Origin: a virus
Virus record (IMG/VR): IMGVR_UViG_3300042453_004282
Location: 1-64,000 of that record
Reading direction: 5' to 3' (one strand)
Length of the DNA stretch: 64,000 bases
Shown here piece by piece: positions 1-11,087 of the stretch (position 1 is its first letter; each line of letters begins with the position of its first letter). The notes under the pieces were generated by a model. The model saw nothing but the letters and a program-made list of their open reading frames with translations, was not told where the DNA came from and did no database searches. The translations under genes were made by a program, and so were the position numbers.

Positions 1-1
1 C

Positions 2-526
2 TATACGGTCTTCAACGCGGCCCAGACGGAGGGCTGCGACCTCCCCACCCCCGCACCGCTCCGCACGGTGGAGCCGCTGGACGCGGCGGAGGCGATCATC
101 ACCGGGTGGCAGGACGCGCCGCGCTGGCTGACGGTGGACGGGGACAGCGCCCACTACCGCCCCAGCACCGACACGATCACCCTGCCCCCGCGTGGGCGGT
201 TCGTCTCCCCGGTGGCCTACTACGCCACCGCGTACCACGAGGCGATCCACGCCACCGGCCACAAGAGCCGACTGGCGCGTGACCTCGCCGGGTACGGCCA
301 GCAGTACGCGCAGGAGGAGCTAGTCGCTGAGGTGGGAGCCGCCTTCCTGCTGGCTGAGGTGGGGCTGGACGGGACGGAGGTGCTGGACAACAGCGCCGCC
401 TATGTGCAGGGGTGGGCCAGCCGACTGGGCAGCGACCCCAAGCGGCTGCTGGACGCCGCCAGCGCCGCGCAGAAGGCGGTGGACCACATCCTAGGGGTCC
501 GCTGGGGGGAGGAGGCGGCAGAGTGA
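2..526 (+). CDS. ardC: ArdC-family antirestriction protein, C-terminal zincin domain (5' partial)
   Basis: The frame is already open at the first base, so the start and the N-terminal ssDNA-binding domain lie outside the window. What remains is the metallopeptidase half of ArdC-type proteins. It has the zinc motif HEAIH followed by GH (nt 236-262), then an EELVAE segment with the third acidic residue, and the family-typical NSAAYVQGW stretch near the end. ArdC proteins are known from conjugative plasmids and phages, where they protect incoming DNA against host restriction. Codons end almost always in G or C, like the next five genes and unlike the phage genes after 4.2 kb. A GC-rich hairpin follows the stop. 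Family assignment is firm; the antirestriction role is inferred from the family. Confidence 0.85.
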   Translation, partial: YTVFNAAQTEGCDLPTPAPLRTVEPLDAAEAIITGWQDAPRWLTVDGDSAHYRPSTDTITLPPRGRFVSPVAYYATAYHEAIHATGHKSRLARDLAGYGQQYAQEELVAEVGAAFLLAEVGLDGTEVLDNSAAYVQGWASRLGSDPKRLLDAASAAQKAVDHILGVRWGEEAAE

Positions 527-533
527 GCCGGGA

Positions 534-559
534 GGGGCGGGGGCACAGTCCCCCGCCCC
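534..559 (+). terminator. GC hairpin after ardC, possible terminator
   Basis: A 10-bp perfect stem (GGGGCGGGGG / CCCCCGCCCC) with a 6-nt loop starts 8 nt after the ardC stop. There is no T tract after it, so it is at best a weak or factor-dependent terminator, or a 3' mRNA-protecting hairpin. The next 130 nt up to the first promoter cassette hold nothing I recognise. Confidence 0.35.
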
Positions 560-690
560 ATCCTCACAGGATCGCGCAGGAGCCACGATCCGGCGTCCGG
601 TAAGGGTAGGGGTGCGGTGAGGGGGTCCGGTCGTTCCTAGGCGATTTTAGAGGCATTTACGGGCCTTCAATTTTTTTTGAGAAATCTTCA

Positions 691-783
691 CCGGGGCACT
701 TGACTCCCCCGGAGAAGGGGTTAAGATCAAGGTATGAGGGACGCACACGGCGTCCCTCTCGCACCCTCAGCAGGAGATCCACG
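691..783 (+). promoter_or_regulatory. Promoter-leader cassette 1
   Basis: First of five copies of one cassette. An inverted repeat CCGGGG...CCCCGG (691-712) carries the -35 box in its loop. The promoter is TTGACT (700-705), a 16-bp spacer and TAAGAT (722-727). A leader hairpin follows, GAGGGACGC / GCGTCCCTC (736-758) with loop ACACG, then the ribosome site AGCAGGAGATCC just before the ATG at 784. An A/T-rich stretch at 670-690 lies upstream of the -35 box. Confidence 0.75.
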
Positions 784-1059
784 ATGACCGCCACGGCCAC
801 GCTTCACATCTCTGCGCAGAAGACCCCCGCGATCACCCCAGCGGACATTGGCCGCACCTTCATCTGGCACGGCGACTACATCATCGACACCGACGACGGC
901 ACCCCCACGACCATCACGGGGACGCTGGCGTGGGTTAGCCAGACGGACGACTGGTGCGGGATCATCCCCGACTGGACGCACAGCAGCCCGCAGGGTGCGA
1001 CCACCTACACGGTCTCCATTAGCGGTCTCCACCGAATCGTCATCCGCCGCGCCGACTGA
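784..1059 (+). CDS. Hypothetical protein, cassette gene 1 (91 aa)
   Basis: Small protein of unknown function. The start at 784 is set by the conserved leader: the ribosome site AGGAGAT lies 8-14 nt upstream, as in the sister cassettes, whereas the longer open frame from 700 would run through the promoter. The sequence is rich in Thr and Ile. Its middle (FIWHGDYIIDTDDGTP, then TITGTLAWVS) suggests a small beta-barrel or SH3-like fold with alternating hydrophobic residues, and it ends in a basic IVIRRAD. No membrane segment or signal peptide is seen. Its own strong promoter and position beside ardC suggest an early accessory, perhaps host-takeover, function; that is inference only. Confidence 0.75.
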   Translation: MTATATLHISAQKTPAITPADIGRTFIWHGDYIIDTDDGTPTTITGTLAWVSQTDDWCGIIPDWTHSSPQGATTYTVSISGLHRIVIRRAD

Positions 1060-1080
1060 GAAATTTTCAAAAAATCTTCG

Positions 1081-1171
1081 CCGGGGGCCTTGACTCCCCC
1101 GGAGAAGGGGTTAAGATCCAAGAAGATGGACGCACACGGCGTCCATCGCGACCCGCAGCAAGGAGATCCCG
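1081..1171 (+). promoter_or_regulatory. Promoter-leader cassette 2
   Basis: Second cassette copy. Inverted repeat CCGGGGG / CCCCCGG (1081-1102) with the -35 in its loop; TTGACT (1090-1095), 16-bp spacer, TAAGAT (1112-1117). The leader hairpin GATGGACGC / GCGTCCATC (1125-1147) keeps loop ACACG but has a compensated G-C to T-A change relative to copy 1. The ribosome site AAGGAGATCCCG precedes the ATG at 1172. Confidence 0.75.
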
Positions 1172-1537
1172 ATGCGCACCTTCCGCCGCCTCCATGGCCC
1201 CGCTGGCCTCACCCTCACCCTCGACTGCGCCGAGATCTACCCGGAAGACCCCGGCATGGGCACCCCCGCGCTGGTGGAGGTGGTGAGGGGGCGGACCACC
1301 GCCAGCGGCACCTTCTGGTGCGCCCTCGACACCGGGGAGGTGGACGGGACGGTGGACCTCACCCCCCATCAGCTCCTGTGGCTGAGTGAGCAGCACGACA
1401 CGGTGGAGGCCTTCATCCAGCACTGGACGGCAGAGGCTCGCCGGGAGATGGCCGAGGTGCGCGCCGAGGCTGCCGCCGAGTACGAGGCGCTGACGGCTGG
1501 CATCGACGCCGATCTTGAAGCCAACGGGGAGTGGTAA
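1172..1537 (+). CDS. Hypothetical protein, cassette gene 2 (121 aa)
   Basis: Unrecognised protein. The start at 1172 follows the conserved ribosome site of the cassette. The N-terminal half looks like a beta-rich domain (alternating hydrophobic and polar residues, TTASGTFWCALDTG). The C-terminal half, from about residue 70, is a long amphipathic helix rich in Glu, Ala and Arg (AEARREMAEVRAEAAAEYEA) and probably forms a coiled coil, which points to oligomerisation. No catalytic motif is seen. The gene is under its own promoter copy in the GC-rich block, so it is likely co-regulated with its neighbours but transcribed separately. Confidence 0.72.
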   Translation: MRTFRRLHGPAGLTLTLDCAEIYPEDPGMGTPALVEVVRGRTTASGTFWCALDTGEVDGTVDLTPHQLLWLSEQHDTVEAFIQHWTAEARREMAEVRAEAAAEYEALTAGIDADLEANGEW

Positions 1538-1545
1538 AAAAAATG

Positions 1546-1641
1546 GCCGGGGGGACTTGCGCCCCCCGGCACCCTAGGTTAGGATCCAAGGAGAGGGGCG
1601 ACACTCCGTCGCCCCTCGCGACCCCAGCAGGAGATCCCGCC
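1546..1641 (+). promoter_or_regulatory. Promoter-leader cassette 3
   Basis: Third copy, variant type. Inverted repeat GCCGGGGGG / CCCCCCGGC (1546-1570) with the -35 TTGCGC (1557-1562) starting in its loop; 17-bp spacer; TAGGAT (1580-1585). The leader hairpin has a 10-bp stem GAGGGGCGAC / GTCGCCCCTC (1593-1617) and loop ACTCC instead of ACACG. The ribosome site AGCAGGAGATCC precedes the ATG at 1642. A run of A (1536-1543) lies upstream. Confidence 0.72.
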
Positions 1642-1854
1642 ATGTCCGCACCGACCCGCGCCTTCGACGTGAAGATGCCCCGGACCTTCGCCACCGTCGC
1701 CAACGCCATCAAGGCGGTGGAGCGCACCACCTTTGAGCCGGGGCTGACCTATGTGATCGCCGTGGACGCGCAGGGCCGGTACTTCCCCTGTTTCGTCGGG
1801 GAGTCCGCCGCCCATGTGATCCACCAAGGTTTCGCCGTCATCAGCCGCCGCTGA
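1642..1854 (+). CDS. Hypothetical protein, cassette gene 3 (70 aa)
   Basis: A 70-residue protein of unknown function. The start at 1642 is fixed by the cassette ribosome site. It begins with a basic, hydrophilic stretch (SAPTRAFDVKMPRTFATV) and continues with a beta-like pattern (TYVIAVDAQGRYFPCFVG) ending in ISRR. One cysteine and one histidine only, so no obvious metal site. The short length and private promoter fit an early accessory phage or plasmid gene. No homologue is recognised by eye. Confidence 0.68.
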   Translation: MSAPTRAFDVKMPRTFATVANAIKAVERTTFEPGLTYVIAVDAQGRYFPCFVGESAAHVIHQGFAVISRR

Positions 1855-1876
1855 AAAAAAAAATCCAAAAATCTTC

Positions 1877-1969
1877 TCCGGGGGGCTTGATTCCCCCGGA
1901 GGAGTGGTTAAGATCCAAGGAGAGGGACGCACACGGCGTCCCTCCCGCACCCTCAGCAGGAGATCCACG
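1877..1969 (+). promoter_or_regulatory. Promoter-leader cassette 4
   Basis: Fourth copy. Inverted repeat TCCGGGGG / CCCCCGGA (1877-1900) around the -35 TTGATT (1887-1892); 16-bp spacer; TAAGAT (1909-1914). The leader hairpin GAGGGACGC / GCGTCCCTC (1922-1944) with loop ACACG is identical to copy 1. The ribosome site AGCAGGAGATCC precedes the ATG at 1970. Confidence 0.75.
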
Positions 1970-2503
1970 ATGACCGCTGCCGCTCTGCTCGCCCGCGCCG
2001 CCACCGGCACCCGCATGGTGTCGCTCGTGTACACCACCCGCGAGACTGGCGAGGTGGCGCGCTACCTGATCGTCCCCGGCGCTACGTTGGAGACGCTCTA
2101 CCGCAGGGACGCCGCGTGGCTGGAGCGGGCCTACCGCTTCCTCTCCCGCATCGCCCCGGAGGGGGCCGCGACGGTGGCGGTGGGGCAGGTGCTCGCCAGC
2201 CGCGCCGTGTCGCTGGAGACGCCGGGGGAGAATCCGGCGGCGACCGCCGCCCACGCCTACGACTCCGTGGCGCCGGGGCTGAAGGTCCACCGGGAGAGCG
2301 GTGAGGTCCACGTCTCCGGGGTGCTGGTGGGGAAGGTGGTCCTCACCCCCGGCACTCCCCGCAAGCCGGTGGCCCACCGCACCCCGGTGACCGCCGCGAA
2401 GGCCCGGCTCCGCTACATGGTCCCCAGCGCCAAGTGGCGCCAGTTCCGGCTGGCCGACATGGGCCGGGTGGCGGCAGAGGGGGAGGTGCTGGTGCTGGGC
2501 TGA
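1970..2503 (+). CDS. Hypothetical protein, cassette gene 4 (177 aa)
   Basis: Unrecognised 177-aa protein; the start at 1970 is set by the cassette. The N-terminal part reads as a beta hairpin followed by helices (SLVYTTRETGEVARYLI, then TLETLYRRDAAWLERAYRFL). The middle is Ala/Pro rich, and the C-terminal half is basic (RKPVAHRTPVTAAKARLRYM, KWRQFRLADMG), which could suit nucleic-acid binding. No cysteine pairs or catalytic signature are seen. It stands alone under its own promoter copy. The function is unknown, and the DNA-binding suggestion rests only on charge. Confidence 0.72.
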   Translation: MTAAALLARAATGTRMVSLVYTTRETGEVARYLIVPGATLETLYRRDAAWLERAYRFLSRIAPEGAATVAVGQVLASRAVSLETPGENPAATAAHAYDSVAPGLKVHRESGEVHVSGVLVGKVVLTPGTPRKPVAHRTPVTAAKARLRYMVPSAKWRQFRLADMGRVAAEGEVLVLG

Positions 2504-2512
2504 AAGAAAAAC

Positions 2513-2606
2513 GCCGGGGGGCCTTGCGCCCCCCGGCACCCTAGGTTAGGATCCAAGAAGAGGGGCGCACACGGCGCCCCTCGCAAACGCACCACCGGAG
2601 GCTCAG
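2513..2606 (+). promoter_or_regulatory. Promoter-leader cassette 5
   Basis: Fifth copy, variant type like copy 3. Inverted repeat GCCGGGGGG / CCCCCCGGC (2513-2537); -35 TTGCGC (2524-2529); 17-bp spacer; TAGGAT (2547-2552). The leader hairpin GAGGGGCGC / GCGCCCCTC (2560-2582) with loop ACACG has a compensated A-T to G-C change relative to copy 1. Its ribosome site (CACCGGAGGCTC) differs from the other four copies. Confidence 0.73.
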
Positions 2607-3452
2607 ATGTCCCGCACCGACCTGCACCGCCCCAGCGTCATGATCCCCGCCGACTACGACCTCCTCACGGTCTACTGGTCCGCACGGTACACCCTCGACG
2701 GCGAGTGCATCGACGAGGGGTACGGGATCGACGAGGCGTCGGCCATCATGGCGGACGCCGTCGCCAGCGGCCAGCCGGTCTACGGGTCCATCGGCCGCTG
2801 CGGCTCCTGCGGGGCGCGCTACATCACCGGGGCGCTGTACGAGCACCGCCCCACCGGGGAGCTTCTCAACGTGGGCCACGACTGCGCCGACAAAATGTAC
2901 CTGACCGCCGACTGGACGGCGTCGGAGCTTGCGGCGAAGCGGGCGGCGGACCGCCGCGCTGCTAGCCTCAACCGGCTGCGCCGTGCGGCCGAGGCGGCGG
3001 CGTTTCTCGCGCAGCGTGAGGGGCTGGAAGACGCCCTCACCGCCACCTACACCGGGGGGCGGCAGCACCACATCCTCCGCGATCTCAGCGCCAAGCTCGC
3101 GCAATGGGGGAGCCTGTCGGAGGCGCAGACGGCGCTGGCCTACCGGCTTGCGGAGGAGGTTCGGGAGGCGAACAGCCGCCCCGTTGAGGTGCTGGTGAGC
3201 GCGCCGACTGGCCGGGTGACCATCCGTGGCCGGGTGGTGGGGCTCCGTGCGGTAGAGTCCATGTACGGGGTCACCCTGAAGGCGACCGTGCGGGTGCCGG
3301 TGGACGGGGTGGAGGGCGGCGTGTGGTACTGCTGGCTCACCGTCCCCGGTGGCGCTAGCTGGACGCGGGGGGACACGGTGGCGGTGAAGGCGACCGTGGA
3401 GCGCAGCGACCGGGAGGGCTGGGGCTTCGGCAAGCGCCCCGCCGTCGCCTAG
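2607..3452 (+). CDS. Zinc-ribbon and OB-fold-like phage protein, function unknown (281 aa)
   Basis: Three parts are visible. Residues about 1-55 have no clear motif. At about 60-100 there is a metal-binding-like segment, CGSCGARY followed by GELLNVGHDCADKM; this Cys-x2-Cys plus GHDC arrangement recurs in many phage proteins. A helical, Ala/Arg-rich middle follows (about 105-190), then a C-terminal beta domain (about 195-281) with a GRVTIRGRVVG strand and a GDTVAVKATVERSDRE...GFGKRP tail that resembles OB-fold-like nucleic-acid-binding ends of such proteins. The start is placed 8 nt after a GGAGG site. It is the last cassette gene and is followed directly by a strong terminator. Family resemblance is from memory; the function is not known. 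Confidence 0.72.
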   Translation: MSRTDLHRPSVMIPADYDLLTVYWSARYTLDGECIDEGYGIDEASAIMADAVASGQPVYGSIGRCGSCGARYITGALYEHRPTGELLNVGHDCADKMYLTADWTASELAAKRAADRRAASLNRLRRAAEAAAFLAQREGLEDALTATYTGGRQHHILRDLSAKLAQWGSLSEAQTALAYRLAEEVREANSRPVEVLVSAPTGRVTIRGRVVGLRAVESMYGVTLKATVRVPVDGVEGGVWYCWLTVPGGASWTRGDTVAVKATVERSDREGWGFGKRPAVA

Positions 3453-3458
3453 CCGGGA

Positions 3459-3496
3459 GGGGGGAGGCCAAAGCACCGGCCTCCCCCCTTTTTTTT
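3459..3496 (+). terminator. Strong intrinsic terminator ending the GC-rich gene block
   Basis: An 11-bp perfect stem GGGGGGAGGCC / GGCCTCCCCCC with an 8-nt loop is followed by eight T. It lies 7 nt after the stop of the preceding gene and closes the cassette block. Confidence 0.93.
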
Positions 3497-3518
3497 GTTC
3501 CTGTCTTTTCCGCCGGGT

Positions 3519-3610
3519 GGAACGCGGACGGGGAACGCGGAGGGAAAGCGCGGATGAAAAGCGCGGACGAATGCGCGCAGGAGCCCGCAGGAGCCCGCAG
3601 GAGCGACGAA
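3519..3610. repeat. Short GC-rich direct repeats (origin-flanking region)
   Basis: Two small arrays. Four degenerate copies of GAA(A)GCGCGGA/GAACGCGGA begin near 3519, 3533, 3545 and 3559 (12-14 bp apart). Then three copies of GCAGGAGCCC/GCAGGAGCG follow at 10-bp steps (about 3577-3605). No convincing gene crosses them. They precede the iterons and DnaA boxes and may belong to the same control region. Confidence 0.55.
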
Positions 3611-3723
3611 CGCACCCCCGAAAGGGGGACAACCCCACAACGGGGGGCGAGTCGTTTATAGGGCATTTTAGAGGGATCTGGAAGGGGTGCCGGGATTGTG
3701 ACGCTCAGGGTGGGGGGGATTCG

Positions 3724-3824
3724 TTGCAGGAATCGTGCCACCGTCGCCGCCTTGCAAGGATCATGCCAGCGCCGAGGCTATGCAAGGACCGTGCCACGAG
3801 GCCCTCTGTGCAAGGATCGTGCCA
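3724..3824 (+). repeat. Four 17-bp iterons at exact 28-bp period
   Basis: Copies of TTGCAAGGATCGTGCCA start at 3724, 3752, 3780 and 3808, each 28 bp from the next, with 1-3 differences between copies and unrelated 11-bp spacers. Evenly phased direct repeats next to DnaA boxes are the classic layout of iteron-controlled replication origins bound by a Rep protein. No Rep gene is seen in the window. Protein-coding explanations in either strand are unconvincing. Confidence 0.7.
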
Positions 3825-3832
3825 GACTTTTG

Positions 3833-3958
3833 TGTGGATAACTCTGTGGATAACTCTGTGGATAACTCTGTGGATAACTCTGTGGAAATGTGGATAACTC
3901 TGTGGATAACTCTGTGGAAAACTCGGTGAGAAACGACTATCAAAATGTGGAAATGTGG
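3833..3958. repeat. DnaA-box array (tandem 12-mers TGTGGATAACTC)
   Basis: TGTGGATAA, the exact complement of the E. coli-type DnaA box TTATCCACA, occurs six times: four abutting 12-bp units at 3833-3880, and two more at 3889 and 3901. Near-match TGTGGAAA units lie at 3881, 3913, 3945 and 3951. All six have the same orientation. The array follows the iterons directly and is followed by runs of A and T (about 4050-4220), which could serve as an unwinding region. Together with the iterons it looks like a theta-type replication origin or a DnaA-binding sink. Confidence 0.75.
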
Positions 3959-4221
3959 AAAACTGGGACTCCGGACATCCGCCAGAAGGCGCGGTTAACC
4001 CCCCCACCCCCAATATATGTGGCACGGGGGAATCTTACCGTAGGTCACTGAGGCGCATGGAATTTTTTTTCCGGGGCGAAAAAGGGGCAGGATAGGAAAA
4101 AATCACGATGGAACTCTGAGGATGTTACTGGGCATACCGGGAGAAAAATTTTTTCCGGGGAAAAATCTCCCTATAGGGTCGTCACCTAAATAGTGAGAAC
4201 CCTTTTTTTTTTCTTAATACT
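3959..4221. other. Non-coding junction region, A/T runs
   Basis: No gene is seen here. It holds poly-C (4000-4010), several A or T runs (4051-4058, 4146-4152, 4201-4210), two short GC inverted repeats around TTTTTTCCGGGG, and a weak late-promoter-like CCTAAATAG (about 4186-4194) before the 849-aa gene. The base composition changes from the GC-rich block on the left to the phage-like region on the right across this stretch. Confidence 0.5.
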
Positions 4222-6771
4222 ATGGCCAAATCAGCCTCCACGGATCTGGAACTCATCCAATGTATTGCCTTTGCGGTGAAGGCGTGTAAACAGAAATCGT
4301 TCACGGTGCCCACGACGGTATTTCCCAAGATTGAACGAGTGCGGGGGATGGCCGTTATTGAAGCGCAATTACAGGATAGGAACACGCCCTTTCTCACCTT
4401 CGGGGGGATTACGGTGGCGAAGGAACCGAATGCCGTGGCGGGGATGGGGGCGTCTGAGGCGGATGTGAGCGCCGCGATCACCGCCTCCCGGAATCGGTTC
4501 AAAACCGCAGCCGAGAAGTATGTGGCGCGACCGATTGCGGGGAGACAACCCACGGAGACGGATATTCGAAACGTGTTGGTCTTGGATCCGCAAGCGTATT
4601 TCTATGATTTGGTGAATAACTACGCGGTGGATCTGTCGGATACGTCCTTGCCGAAGCAGCAGGGGGGGTTGGTGTTTTTCTTGGACAAGGACTTGTCCGT
4701 ACAGGTGACGATTCCCCATGGGTTTCCCGTGACCGAGAAACTCTTGCAGATCCTGCCGAAGCGGTATCTGCTCTTGAAAGAGTTGCGTGGCGAGGAGTCC
4801 GCAGAAGTGGCGGCGCTGACCAAACTGGAGACGGCTTACAAAAAACTGGTGAAGGCCGAGGAGCGGCTGGAAGAGGCATTAGCCCCACTCCGGAGCATGG
4901 GGAGAAAGCCGACAAAGGGGCAAACGGACAAGGAAGCAAAGTTGGAGGAGGTGCAGCAACAGATTAAGGAGAATCGACAAGCGGCCACGCCGAAAATGGG
5001 GTACATTCGCATCGTCTCCGGGACGCAGGGGCGGGCAAAGGATTACAGCGCCCTTGTACCCCATCTGCGGCAGAATTTTCCATGGACGCGCATGCTGGGA
5101 AGTTATGCGAAGTACAGTCTCTTTCTGACGAAGGGGGGAGACAAGATGACGATCCCGGCGACGATCCTCAAGACATGGAACACCGGGAAGCTGTTGAAGC
5201 GCGTGGTGGATCTGGAAAATCCGGCAAAGGACTATGTGATCTATGATCAGTCGAGTCCGTTCACGGAGACCGTGAAAAATGAAGCCCTCGCGCACATCTT
5301 GGACAAAATGCAACTCAATGGATTGAACGAGGAACTCTTGTCCCCGGTGGACTTGTTTATCGTCAATCGTCGGATGGAACGCGCCATCATGGACGAGATC
5401 CAGAAGAAAATCACGAACAACGCGGATGTCCTACTGGATTATGTAAACGACACCCCGCAGCAGCCGACGACCTATAAAACCATTCTTCAGCGACATTTTG
5501 ACGCGGACGATCTGGTCGGGGTTTCGTTGAAATTGCCAGAAAAGGTTGGATCGGATCCCTTCATGAAAGTGATGGGGGAATATCGCGGGACGGTCTCACA
5601 GGATTTGGCGAAAAAAACGGATCCGTTCACGCGCTTTTTGATGCACCTGATTCCGTCGAAGATGGATGCGATGATTGACGATTTGATCACGATTCAATTC
5701 GACAAGTTTGACATTAAACCCCAGAAAAAATCATGGTCCTACCCGGTCATCTTTAACTATGATACCATGAAGAAATATGGGTTGCAGAATATGCCCTTCA
5801 AATTGGAATTCTTCTTGATGACATGGGACAAGGCCGGGTTCAACGGCCAATGGGCAAAAAACAACCCGGTGCCGACACCGGGAAACTGGACCGGTGGGTA
5901 TGGGATGACGGCGGCAAACTTCCTCTTTTCCATGTATACCGCCTATGACCCGATTGTGAAGGACTTAGCCGCCATCCGGAAAAAGGCGATGGACGAGACG
6001 CTCCAGATGCTCCTCCGTACCGGGCAAGTGTCACCCGCGACGATGAAGATCCCCACCATACAAGCCGCCCAGCGAGAAGCCGAGCGTCTCTTGTCCGCGC
6101 CCCGTATTATTGGTCGATTTAAGGGGGACGATTCCCCCCCGATCCTGCGTTTCACCCGGTTGGTGGAAGACGCGCAGTTGCGGGACATGGTGACGCGCAT
6201 CGCGGCGCTGGAAGCCGAGGAAGCCATGCTAGAGCGGGAACCCGCAAAAAACCCCGTGACCACCCGGCGCAAGAGTGAAGTGAAAACCTTGCTCAAAGAC
6301 CTGAGAGCCCAGAGAAATAAATCACAAACGAATCGCGGATCTGAAAGCAATACGGATCGCATCTATACGCTCTATCAGGTCCGTGTCATTGAACGCCTCT
6401 TGAGCGAATTGGATACCAGTAAGGCGGGGAAATGGACGGAATTTTTGCGTCAAGAAAATCAACCGCCTCGAAAGGACGGCCCTTTTGCGCGGAAGAGCGT
6501 CTTGGAATATATTGACGCACATTATATCGCGGTCCAGTTTTCATGGTTCCTGCTTCGGGGAGGACGGTCCCAACATCTGGCCCTGAAGAAGAAGTTATTC
6601 TTGTCCGTATTCGGTCTCATCACGAAATCTGGGTATAAGTCCTTTGAGACCTTCACCGATGCGGCGGGAAATCTCCAGACGAAAGACATTCTCCGGGTCG
6701 CGGTCATCACCCCGGATCAAAAACGCGCCTATGCGACCTTCAGTAACGCCCCGTATGTGATGTTCTCATAG
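4222..6771 (+). CDS. Large protein of unknown function (849 aa)
   Basis: Unrecognised. It is mostly hydrophilic, with no signal peptide or clear membrane segment. Charged heptad-like helices suggest coiled coils at about residues 185-253 and again around 650-695. The middle region has a compact aromatic-rich block (KKSWSYPVIFNYDTMKKYG, then KLEFFLMTWDKAGFNGQW). Codon use matches the phage genes to the right, not the GC-rich block to the left. It stands alone between the origin-like region and a strong promoter at 6,776, with only a weak late-promoter-like sequence upstream. The size and coiled coils would suit a virion or scaffold protein, but no domain supports that; treat it as an orphan. 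Confidence 0.8.
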   Translation: MAKSASTDLELIQCIAFAVKACKQKSFTVPTTVFPKIERVRGMAVIEAQLQDRNTPFLTFGGITVAKEPNAVAGMGASEADVSAAITASRNRFKTAAEKYVARPIAGRQPTETDIRNVLVLDPQAYFYDLVNNYAVDLSDTSLPKQQGGLVFFLDKDLSVQVTIPHGFPVTEKLLQILPKRYLLLKELRGEESAEVAALTKLETAYKKLVKAEERLEEALAPLRSMGRKPTKGQTDKEAKLEEVQQQIKENRQAATPKMGYIRIVSGTQGRAKDYSALVPHLRQNFPWTRMLGSYAKYSLFLTKGGDKMTIPATILKTWNTGKLLKRVVDLENPAKDYVIYDQSSPFTETVKNEALAHILDKMQLNGLNEELLSPVDLFIVNRRMERAIMDEIQKKITNNADVLLDYVNDTPQQPTTYKTILQRHFDADDLVGVSLKLPEKVGSDPFMKVMGEYRGTVSQDLAKKTDPFTRFLMHLIPSKMDAMIDDLITIQFDKFDIKPQKKSWSYPVIFNYDTMKKYGLQNMPFKLEFFLMTWDKAGFNGQWAKNNPVPTPGNWTGGYGMTAANFLFSMYTAYDPIVKDLAAIRKKAMDETLQMLLRTGQVSPATMKIPTIQAAQREAERLLSAPRIIGRFKGDDSPPILRFTRLVEDAQLRDMVTRIAALEAEEAMLEREPAKNPVTTRRKSEVKTLLKDLRAQRNKSQTNRGSESNTDRIYTLYQVRVIERLLSELDTSKAGKWTEFLRQENQPPRKDGPFARKSVLEYIDAHYIAVQFSWFLLRGGRSQHLALKKKLFLSVFGLITKSGYKSFETFTDAAGNLQTKDILRVAVITPDQKRAYATFSNAPYVMFS

Positions 6772-6804: not shown

Positions 6805-6836
6805 CGAGGGGATCTTTTATCTGAGGGGTGTTTGGT

Positions 6837-7895
6837 ATGGTGAAGGCAGTTGATATTGTGGTGGATTTGCAAGCCGGGGATACGGGAAAAGGAAAAGTCA
6901 CCCACCATCTCCTCAACACCGCGACGGAGCCGTATACCGCCGTCTGTCGTTTCAATGGAGGAGGAAATGCAGGACACACGATCTATCATCACGGAAAGAA
7001 ATATGTTACCCACCAAGTGCCATCAGGTATATTTTTTGGGGTTCCTTGTGTTCTTGGCCTTGGGTGTGTGGTAAATCCCCAAGCACTGGCGGATGAAGTT
7101 CGTGCGTTGCGGGAAGACGGCTTCACCGCTCCCGTGTATGTGGATCGACGTGCCCATGTAACCCGTGCCACCCACGTGGAGACCGACCGAAAGGATAGCG
7201 CGCATCTCGGGACAACGGGGCAAGGAGTCGGTCCCACGATGATGGACAAATACGGACGCACCGGGTTGCGTATGGAGCAGTGGGGGCTAGATGCCTCCGT
7301 GTTTCGCCAACTTGATATTTCCGTGATTGATACTTTTGAGATGTTTCACACGGAATTCACGCCACACACCGTGCTATGTGAAGGGGCACAAGGCTTTCAG
7401 TTGGATGTGGATTGGGGAGATTACCCCTATGTAACCAGTTCCCATTGCACCAGCGGGGCGGTCGCCCTCAACGGCTTTCCTCCGTCCCGATGGAGAAAGG
7501 TGTATGGCGTGATGAAGCCGTATGAAACCTATTCGGGATTCAAGTTGTTCAACGCCCGCGTGGATATGGAAACTACCTATGCCGCACTACAGACACTGGG
7601 GGGAGAAATCGGCGCGACGACGGGACGGCGGCGGCAAGTGCGCAGTTTGCATTTAGATGATGTCATTCGTGCCATTTATGTGAATGATGTAACCGATGTG
7701 ATCATCAACAAGATTGATATCATGGAGGCCGCACACACGGCTGGATATACGAAGGTATACCAGTACAAGCATAATTTCCTGTGGTGGGCCTATGAGACTC
7801 GACAGGATTTTGTGGATGCGGTGACGCGAACCCTTCGGTTGGAGTGTCCCTATCTGCGCACGATCACATGGTCAGATTCCCCCCATGCGGTATAG
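6837..7895 (+). CDS. purA: Adenylosuccinate synthetase family protein (PurA, possibly PurZ-like)
   Basis: PurA joins IMP and aspartate using GTP to make adenylosuccinate; PurZ does the same with dGMP in phages that carry diaminopurine DNA. Visible motifs are the P-loop GDTGKGK with the PurA-type Asp, NAGHT with the catalytic His, TTGQGVGP (PurA usually has TTGRGIGP), CEGAQG, YPYVTSS, GATTGRRR and the guanine-recognition motif NKID. The segment after GATTGRRR (QVRSLHLD) departs from bacterial PurA (RTGWLD). At 352 aa it is about 80 residues shorter than bacterial PurA, in the size range of archaeal PurA and phage PurZ. ATG 6837 is chosen because GAGGGG lies 8 nt upstream; GTG 6828 lies within that site. 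The gene overlaps the next by 11 nt. The family is certain; the substrate is open. Confidence 0.85.
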   Translation: MVKAVDIVVDLQAGDTGKGKVTHHLLNTATEPYTAVCRFNGGGNAGHTIYHHGKKYVTHQVPSGIFFGVPCVLGLGCVVNPQALADEVRALREDGFTAPVYVDRRAHVTRATHVETDRKDSAHLGTTGQGVGPTMMDKYGRTGLRMEQWGLDASVFRQLDISVIDTFEMFHTEFTPHTVLCEGAQGFQLDVDWGDYPYVTSSHCTSGAVALNGFPPSRWRKVYGVMKPYETYSGFKLFNARVDMETTYAALQTLGGEIGATTGRRRQVRSLHLDDVIRAIYVNDVTDVIINKIDIMEAAHTAGYTKVYQYKHNFLWWAYETRQDFVDAVTRTLRLECPYLRTITWSDSPHAV

Positions 7896-9522: not shown

Positions 9523-10042
9523 CCTTGGCCCCGCAGATAGCACCCTGAAGATTGTTCAGCGACTGCTTCCGGTGCAAACACGACAACGAGACACTACCCG
9601 GAACGACATCGTCATTCATAACGATGGGATGAATCTGTCGGCAACAACCGTACATTCTGCATTGAGACATTCACGCCTCTCCTATCATTTTTTTGTGGAT
9701 AGAAGCGGTCGCGTGTTTCAATTCATGTCACTGGATCGTGTGGCAGAACATGCTGGGAGATCCAAACATCTGAATACCAAGCAGTGGAATGACTTCAGCA
9801 TAGGCATCTGTCTGCAAGGATCAAACTTCGTCGGCTACACCAAGGCGCAGTACGCGAGCTTGAACAAATTGATCCGCAACCTTACTCTGCGGTATAAACA
9901 CCTCGGCCCCATTCATGTGGTAGGGCACAACGAGGTGGCCTATCCGAAAGGACGAAAGTCAGACCCCGGAAAACACTTTGACTGGAAACAACTCCATTAT
10001 GGCATACGCACCGTACCACAAGCGGCTCGACGCCGACATTAA
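9485..10042 (+). CDS. N-acetylmuramoyl-L-alanine amidase (Amidase_2), with N-terminal hydrophobic segment
   Basis: It cleaves the amide bond between MurNAc and the stem peptide of peptidoglycan. Motifs are the zinc His in VIHND, the YHFFVDRSGRVFQF core, AEHAGRS, IGICLQG, and near the C-terminus HNEVAYPKGRKSDPGKHFDW with the second zinc His and catalytic Lys region. From ATG 9485 the protein begins MILPLLFLLAQSS, a likely signal peptide or signal-arrest segment, so export by the host Sec system is plausible. An upstream ATG at 9458 is closer to an AAGGA but would add a basic leader. It overlaps uvsE by 38 nt and guaC by 44 nt. It is a candidate endolysin, one of four predicted peptidoglycan enzymes in the window. 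Confidence 0.85.
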   Translation: MILPLLFLLAQSSLGPADSTLKIVQRLLPVQTRQRDTTRNDIVIHNDGMNLSATTVHSALRHSRLSYHFFVDRSGRVFQFMSLDRVAEHAGRSKHLNTKQWNDFSIGICLQGSNFVGYTKAQYASLNKLIRNLTLRYKHLGPIHVVGHNEVAYPKGRKSDPGKHFDWKQLHYGIRTVPQAARRRH

Positions 10043-11087
10043 GCTGGATTTTGATGATGTATTGATGGTTCCACAACCAACCGATATTACATCGCGCAGT
10101 GAAGTGAATCTCGTGGCAAATATTTCCGGCGTCACAAAGAAGACGATTACGGGAGTGCCAATTATTGCGGCCAACATGGATGGAGTGGGAACATTCAGCA
10201 TGAATGCCGCACTCGCCAAGCATCGTATCTTCACGGCGATCACGAAGCATACCACGGTGAACGAGTGGAAAACGATGTTAGAAGCCTATTATCATGATGT
10301 GGATCCTATGCTCAATCCTCTACGCTATGCCTGTGTCAGTATTGGCATGGGTGAAGACAACGTGGCATATCTTCGTGAGATTGACATGGCGATGTATGAT
10401 TATGAAATCACCTCGCCGCTAAAAGTCGTGATTGATGTGGCAAACGGACATATGAAAAAGTTTGCTGCATTTGTGCAGCGCGTCAGAGATGCCTTTCCAC
10501 ATGCCTTCATTATGGCTGGAACGGTGGCCACACCAGACGCCACGGAACAATTGCTTCTTCATGGCGCAGATTTAGTGCGCGTTGGCATCGGAACTGGCGC
10601 CGTATGCACCACTCGTCGTGTCTCTGGTGTTGGGTATCCTCAATTTTCCGCTGTGATGGAGTGCGCGGAGGTTGCTGATGCGCATGGCGGGGGTATTATC
10701 TCGGATGGAGGGTGTGTGCATCCCGGAGATTTTGCAAAAGCGTTGGGTGCAGGGGCAAAAATGGTGATGGCTGGAAGTATTTTTGCCGGTCACACCCAAT
10801 CCGAACAGGAAGTTGATGGCGGATGTGTCACATTTTATGGTATGAGTTCACACGCGGCGCAAGAAAAGCACGGAGAAGTACGAAATTATCGGTCTTCCGA
10901 GGGACGAGTAGTTAAAATTCCGTATAAAGGCGATGTAAACCTGACGGTTTTGGACATTTTGGGAGGAATTCGGTCTGCTTGTGCGTATGTCGGGGCAAGA
11001 AACCTGCAAGATATCGACAAATATGCAAGATTTGTGCGGGTAAACCATCAACTGAACCAAAGTTTGGACGCATACACGATTTCTTGA
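9999..11087 (+). CDS. guaC: GMP reductase (NADPH), GuaC
   Basis: GuaC converts GMP to IMP, releasing ammonia. The sequence follows the GuaC rather than the GuaB pattern: LDFDDVLMVPQ near the start, PIIAANMDGVGTF, VIDVANGH, GIGTGAVCTTR with the catalytic Cys, GVGYPQFSAVMECA, SDGGCVHPGDFAKALGAGA, FYGMSS, YRSSEGR and the DILGGIRSACAYVGA end. There is no CBS-domain insert. ATG 9999 gives 362 aa; an in-frame TTG 21 nt earlier is less likely. It overlaps the amidase gene by 44 nt, a tight arrangement. Paired with the PurA-family enzyme it would route guanine nucleotides through IMP towards adenine nucleotides. Confidence 0.93.
   Translation: MAYAPYHKRLDADIKLDFDDVLMVPQPTDITSRSEVNLVANISGVTKKTITGVPIIAANMDGVGTFSMNAALAKHRIFTAITKHTTVNEWKTMLEAYYHDVDPMLNPLRYACVSIGMGEDNVAYLREIDMAMYDYEITSPLKVVIDVANGHMKKFAAFVQRVRDAFPHAFIMAGTVATPDATEQLLLHGADLVRVGIGTGAVCTTRRVSGVGYPQFSAVMECAEVADAHGGGIISDGGCVHPGDFAKALGAGAKMVMAGSIFAGHTQSEQEVDGGCVTFYGMSSHAAQEKHGEVRNYRSSEGRVVKIPYKGDVNLTVLDILGGIRSACAYVGARNLQDIDKYARFVRVNHQLNQSLDAYTIS

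Follow-up and report, generated by a model that had tools for sequence, protein, structure and literature searches.

Five promoter-leader cassettes with a compensated leader hairpin in front of adjacent small genes of a viral contig

The closest known counterparts of the array described here are the start-associated repeats ESAS and SAS of cluster K phages (Adephagia, TM4), which occur in multiple copies ahead of small non-structural genes, near the start codon. ESASs span 46–47 bp and combine SigA-like promoters with an inverted repeat of 15 bp (PMC11373665), and the sequence changes among cluster K ESASs give no support to RNA pairing (PMC3203893). The first-pass annotation of the present DNA had presented the inclusion of a whole promoter as a contrast to such mycobacteriophage repeats, which is wrong, because ESASs themselves contain SigA-like promoters (PMC11373665), and the Adephagia examples do as well.

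As shown in Table 1, five cassettes of one fixed design lie in front of five small adjacent genes at positions 691–2606 of the window, i.e., the whole stretch of 64,000 nucleotides that was analyzed, which belongs to a virus record of 64,227 bases. The sequence, repeat finding and a layout script all place the five promoter-leader-ribosome site units where they had been annotated. Each cassette runs from an A-rich tract through a dyad around the −35, the −10, a hairpin and a ribosome site with GGAG to the ATG; the tract, which is A- or A/T-rich, abuts the stop codon of the previous gene in units 2–5. According to the layout script, the −35 and −10 are separated by 16 nt where the latter is TAAGAT (units 1, 2, and 4) and by 17 nt where it is TAGGAT (units 3 and 5), and the TTGCGC of the latter two units (type B promoters) is a weak −35. 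The gap between the −10 and the hairpin is 7 nt, or 8 nt in unit 1, which supports the annotated start of the hairpin about 8 nt past the −10, at or near the predicted 5′ end; the gap between the hairpin and the ATG, with GGAG within it, is 24–25 nt in all five units. The combined pattern of promoter and dyad has exactly five matches in the 64 kb, where none is expected, and the high-scoring matches of the covariance model in the window are these five only.

In the repeat finding, units 1 and 4 match at 98% across 56 nt of leader, and units 3 and 5 at 92% across 65 nt of promoter. The modules are mixed among the cassettes, as the leader and promoter likenesses pair different units. The copies are related by duplication, and the five units are therefore not five independent draws. 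The five cassette proteins are not paralogues; their all-against-all comparison detected no similarity. Upstream reading frames were considered and rejected: in unit 1 such a frame overlaps the start codon of the gene, but it is not conserved in the other four units.

Table 1. Positions of the cassette elements, the genes and the terminator of the array in the window.
Feature	Position	Strand	Description
Unit 1 −35 dyad	691..712	+	CCGGGGCACTTGACTCCCCCGG, imperfect
Unit 1 promoter	700..727	+	TTGACT 700–705, 16 nt, TAAGAT 722–727
Unit 1 leader hairpin	736..758	+	GAGGGACGC-ACACG-GCGTCCCTC, 9 bp
Unit 1 gene	784..1059	+	91 aa, without family match; GGAG at 773
Unit 2 −35 dyad	1081..1102	+	CCGGGGGCCTTGACTCCCCCGG
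Unit 2 promoter	1090..1117	+	TTGACT 1090–1095, 16 nt, TAAGAT 1112–1117
Unit 2 leader hairpin	1125..1147	+	GATGGACGC-ACACG-GCGTCCATC, 9 bp, third pair T-A
Unit 2 gene	1172..1537	+	121 aa, without significant family match
Unit 3 −35 dyad	1546..1570	+	GCCGGGGGGACTTGCGCCCCCCGGC, 9 bp; terminator-like and T-tailed on the − strand
Unit 3 promoter	1557..1585	+	TTGCGC 1557–1562, 17 nt, TAGGAT 1580–1585
Unit 3 leader hairpin	1593..1617	+	GAGGGGCGAC-ACTCC-GTCGCCCCTC, 10 bp
Unit 3 gene	1642..1854	+	70 aa, without significant family match
Unit 4 −35 dyad	1877..1900	+	TCCGGGGGGCTTGATTCCCCCGGA
Unit 4 promoter	1887..1914	+	TTGATT 1887–1892, 16 nt, TAAGAT 1909–1914
Unit 4 leader hairpin	1922..1944	+	GAGGGACGC-ACACG-GCGTCCCTC, 9 bp
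Unit 4 gene	1970..2503	+	177 aa, without match in families or plasmids
Unit 5 −35 dyad	2513..2537	+	GCCGGGGGGCCTTGCGCCCCCCGGC, 9 bp
Unit 5 promoter	2524..2552	+	TTGCGC 2524–2529, 17 nt, TAGGAT 2547–2552
Unit 5 leader hairpin	2560..2582	+	GAGGGGCGC-ACACG-GCGCCCCTC, 9 bp
Unit 5 gene	2607..3452	+	281 aa, Cys-rich N-terminal part and C-terminal OB-like domain
Intrinsic terminator, array end	3455..3492	+	15 pairs, T run

The stems of the five leader hairpins are all perfect, with 9, 9, 10, 9, and 9 bp in units 1–5, and the loop is ACACG in four of them and ACTCC in unit 3, in agreement with the annotation. A perfect stem of at least 9 bp occurred in 19 of 20,000 shuffled leaders, compared with 5/5 real leaders, and the RNA-folding z-scores of the five leaders are −2.5 to −2.9. 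The predicted folds retain the hairpin, and the ribosome site stays open outside it. A search of Rfam gave sub-threshold chance matches only, with none above the gathering threshold.

In the alignment of the five copies, eight pairs are shared and 40 of the 40 cells are paired; two pairs are changed on both sides and none on one side only. As had been annotated, these are the third pair, which is G-C except for T-A in unit 2, and the sixth pair, which is A-T in units 1, 2, and 4 and G-C in units 3 and 5. In unit 3, a swapped apical pair together with one extra pair forms a third compensated event. Because the change in the sixth pair tracks the promoter type, the five copies amount to approximately three compensated events. 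By position alone, two variable positions per arm would fall opposite each other with a chance of 1 in 28, and the covariation score was reached by 13 of 500 shuffles. The covariation is thus good but non-decisive evidence for pairing, modest in weight, and it does not distinguish an RNA structure from a DNA palindrome, because a dyad-symmetric operator or the correction of a quasi-palindrome would leave the same pattern. The first-pass annotation had concluded from the compensated changes that the RNA structure is selected; all the changes are indeed compensated, whereas selection on RNA is not established by about three events with this score.

A second inverted repeat, overlooked in the first-pass annotation, surrounds the −35 in every unit. 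It is GC-rich, with the form CCGGGG(G)..TTG..CCCCCGG, and carries the −35 in its loop as the sole promoter element inside; its arms have 6–9 bp, or up to 12 with mismatches. The core letters of the dyad (CCGGGG..CCCCCGG) are invariant in 5/5 units, in contrast to those of the leader stem. Constant letters in the dyad are consistent with a DNA site, and constant pairing in the leader stem with a structure; judging from its sequence, the dyad is probably the operator of one common regulator. In the minus-strand reading, the dyads of units 3, 4, and 5 resemble T-tailed terminators, so that the dyad could also stop antisense transcription; on the plus strand, the dyad lacks a T run.

Further copies, which had been proposed as a check of the covariation, were not found in the collections searched. 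The array had no relative among phages by blastn, and blastn of positions 1–4220 against plasmids returned matches to the metallopeptidase gene and the DnaA boxes only. The dyad-promoter pattern had no match in genome contigs or viral contigs. The −10/initial-transcript pattern had 3 matches in viral contigs and 20 in genome contigs, none with a hairpin, and these were regarded as chance. The covariance model gave nothing convincing in 37 whole contigs or in the ArdC-gene and PurA-like loci. ACACG hairpins also occur in loci L005 and L251, some 25 nt upstream of a start codon but with no promoter seen, and were set aside as chance or ordinary intergenic hairpins. Integron attC sites were rejected on inspection, with no integrase seen and GTTRRRY not matched, as were N4 hairpin promoters, which have loops of 3 nt. 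The hairpin-core patterns hit 116 and 115 stretches of viral contigs, among which inspection found the unit of promoter, hairpin and ribosome site in locus L342 only. A scan for whole cassettes over 3.6 Mb of loci returned the five of the window only, the hairpin-to-start layout of L342 being outside the rules of the scan.

L342 (G038) is a viral contig of 123,873 bp, found through the 15-base hairpin core, with at least 16 copies of the promoter CCTTGACAA-N-TGACC-TAT, many of which precede single genes. At L342:7425, as in the window, the −35 lies in a dyad, CCCCTT..AAGGGG, and is followed by a 9 bp hairpin with an ACACG loop and then by a ribosome site; it was the search that picked out this 9 bp unit. 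The contig has just one further ACACG-loop hairpin with a stem of at least 5 bp (5 bp); the search had not picked it out, and it too follows a copy of the repeated promoter. Unlike the window, however, the contig has a different sequence, and most of its leaders are without a strong hairpin, a stem of at least 6 bp being present in 2 of 16 leaders, compared with 8% of random windows. No gene was found in common with the tested part of the window. Because its leaders are not enriched in hairpins and no gene is shared, L342 is a weak parallel to the cassettes of the window.

Upstream of the array lies a 5′-truncated MPTase/ArdC-type antirestriction gene, directly 3′ of which a perfect 10 bp GC hairpin without a T run is found at 534–559 (GGGGCGGGGG-CACAGT-CCCCCGCCCC); a tRNA-Arg call by ARAGORN at 413–505 (−), within the metallopeptidase coding sequence, is probably false. 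The products of units 1–4 had no significant match among protein families. The unit 5 protein has relatives in Microbacterium phages, in Microbacterium and Arthrobacter plasmids and in viral contig L120, and the viral contig with this relative shares the metallopeptidase gene with the window. The AlphaFold2 model of the unit 5 protein is of low confidence (mean pLDDT of 55.5) and best across the last 90 residues, and its top Foldseek matches are PriB and SSB, which bind ssDNA, with E about 1e-3.

The DNA from position 1 to about 4.1 kb has 65–73% GC and is plasmid- or phage-accessory-like, and the tetranucleotide distance of the first 4 kb block to the rest is 0.73, compared with 0.14–0.29 for the other 4 kb blocks. 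At 3900–4200, the composition shifts abruptly to T4-like phage DNA with about 48% GC and with ATAAATA sites resembling late promoters; this DNA begins with the late-promoter-like CTAAATAG at 4186 and contains genes for baseplate, head closure, sheath stabilizer and ssDNA-binding proteins. This sharp contrast indicates that the contig may be chimeric; the array may belong to a different replicon that was joined on during assembly, or to an island acquired recently. Four iterons with 28-bp spacing occupy 3725–3825 (−), three of which match the sigma-54 consensus TGGCAY-N4-YTTGC on the minus strand (0.26 expected in the window), the fourth being close to it. Beside the iterons, at 3833–3909, are six exact copies of the DnaA box TGTGGATAA, mostly with 12 bp spacing, and from their sequence these boxes next to the iterons look like a replication origin. 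An 849 aa protein encoded at 4222–6771 had no relative among the phages or viral contigs searched. A PurA-like gene at 6828–7895, for which the best PHROG is annotated as 2-aminooxy adenylosuccinate synthetase, and an IMP dehydrogenase/GMP reductase-like gene at 9978–11087 in the T4-like part make a modified-purine pathway possible.

We tentatively read the array as five single-gene units in which the dyad would serve as a shared operator and the hairpin would protect or insulate the 5′ end, a reading drawn from the sequence to which we give somewhat less than an even chance. Each cassette would be driven by one sigma-70-type promoter with its −35 inside the GC-rich dyad, and one shared regulator would act at the dyad operators to co-control the five genes. 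With the transcription start predicted about 7 nt after the −10, each message would begin a few nt from a stable hairpin, and unrelated small genes would gain the same dependable message start. The same geometry in 5/5 units despite unrelated proteins, the predicted folds with their free ribosome site, and the exclusively compensated stem changes argue for this 5′-hairpin reading; the approximately three compensated events (13/500 shuffles), the weak −35 of units 3 and 5, and the lack of systematic hairpins in L342 count against it.

The leader dyad could instead act at the DNA level, as a second operator spanning roughly +5 to +28, with the RNA hairpin as a by-product, as a perfect 9–10 bp palindrome with a 5 nt spacer just past the start site is in the usual position of an operator. 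One dyad is already present on the −35, and symmetric changes in the two arms would also preserve the symmetry of a dimer site. However, the half-sites differ (GAGGGACGC, GATGGACGC, and GAGGGGCGAC) with pairing retained, ACACG is an asymmetric spacer and yet recurs in 4/5 units, and cluster K ESASs, which are regarded as DNA sites, have no such compensation (PMC3203893); we consider a second operator rather unlikely. The retention of ACACG in four of the five loops would also suit the site of an RNA-binding protein for translational control or promoter-proximal antitermination, possibly encoded by the array itself, where the Cys-rich and OB-like product of the last gene has the shape of a nucleic-acid-binding protein. 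Promoter-proximal pentaloop hairpins are used by phage antiterminators (boxB). Such a protein site is nevertheless decidedly unlikely, as unit 3 differs in its loop and has a longer stem, the predicted folds leave the ribosome site unmasked, and the OB model, at the pLDDT given above, has best matches that bind ssDNA. The likeness of leaders 1 and 4 and of promoters 3 and 5 indicates young copies, and the independent changes are few, as would be expected if one unit had recently been duplicated and its palindrome perfected by template switching, with the hairpin unselected. The absence of any uncompensated pair in 40 cells and the constant geometry in front of genes that share no detectable similarity make such an origin without selection on the hairpin decidedly unlikely as well.

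A portable cassette working at two levels, with one regulator on the dyad DNA and the ACACG hairpin read as RNA by that regulator or by a further factor, is unlikely; if it were true, a mobile element or phage could plug unrelated genes into one regulon. If the 5′-hairpin reading is true, the array would be a natural standardized expression part, consisting of promoter, operator, 5′ insulating hairpin and ribosome site, employed repeatedly for unrelated genes, and a test case for whether phage start-associated repeats can act via RNA structure. With five copies on a single, possibly chimeric contig, the array carries limited weight.

Like ESASs, the cassettes pair a SigA-like promoter with an inverted repeat (PMC3203893, PMC11373665), and the unit recurs five times, each time in front of a small non-structural gene. 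The arms of the ESAS contain the promoter hexamers, whereas the dyad in the window encloses the −35 only, and none of the window dyads is a repeat with 15–17 bp arms holding a SigA-like promoter. The 13 bp SAS GGGATAGGAGCCC, which cluster K phages carry at the start codon, matched 10 times when up to 3 mismatches were allowed, compared with 11.5 expected, and never within the cassettes. In two Adephagia ESAS examples, the −35 is inside the repeat arm and no leader hairpin is present; the folding z-scores of these two leaders are +1.5 and +0.75, no better than those of shuffles, whereas the window has a perfect leader hairpin after the promoter. The cassettes of the window would work like an ESAS-type promoter repeat, without being a member of that group, and with a leader hairpin added. 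Bacterial mRNA is reportedly stabilized by 5′-terminal stem-loops, as described in 1992 by Emory and by Bouvet and Belasco (both listed in PMC3997798). As in the E. coli ompA and papA leaders, a stable stem-loop in the window would lie a few nt from the predicted 5′ end with the ribosome site free, this proximity being predicted from the position of the −10 alone (7–8 nt). The late messages of T7 carry 5′-terminal stem-loops behind T7 polymerase promoters. The ompA and papA leaders are single leaders, whereas the stem-loop of the window recurs in five cassettes, each time with a host-type promoter.
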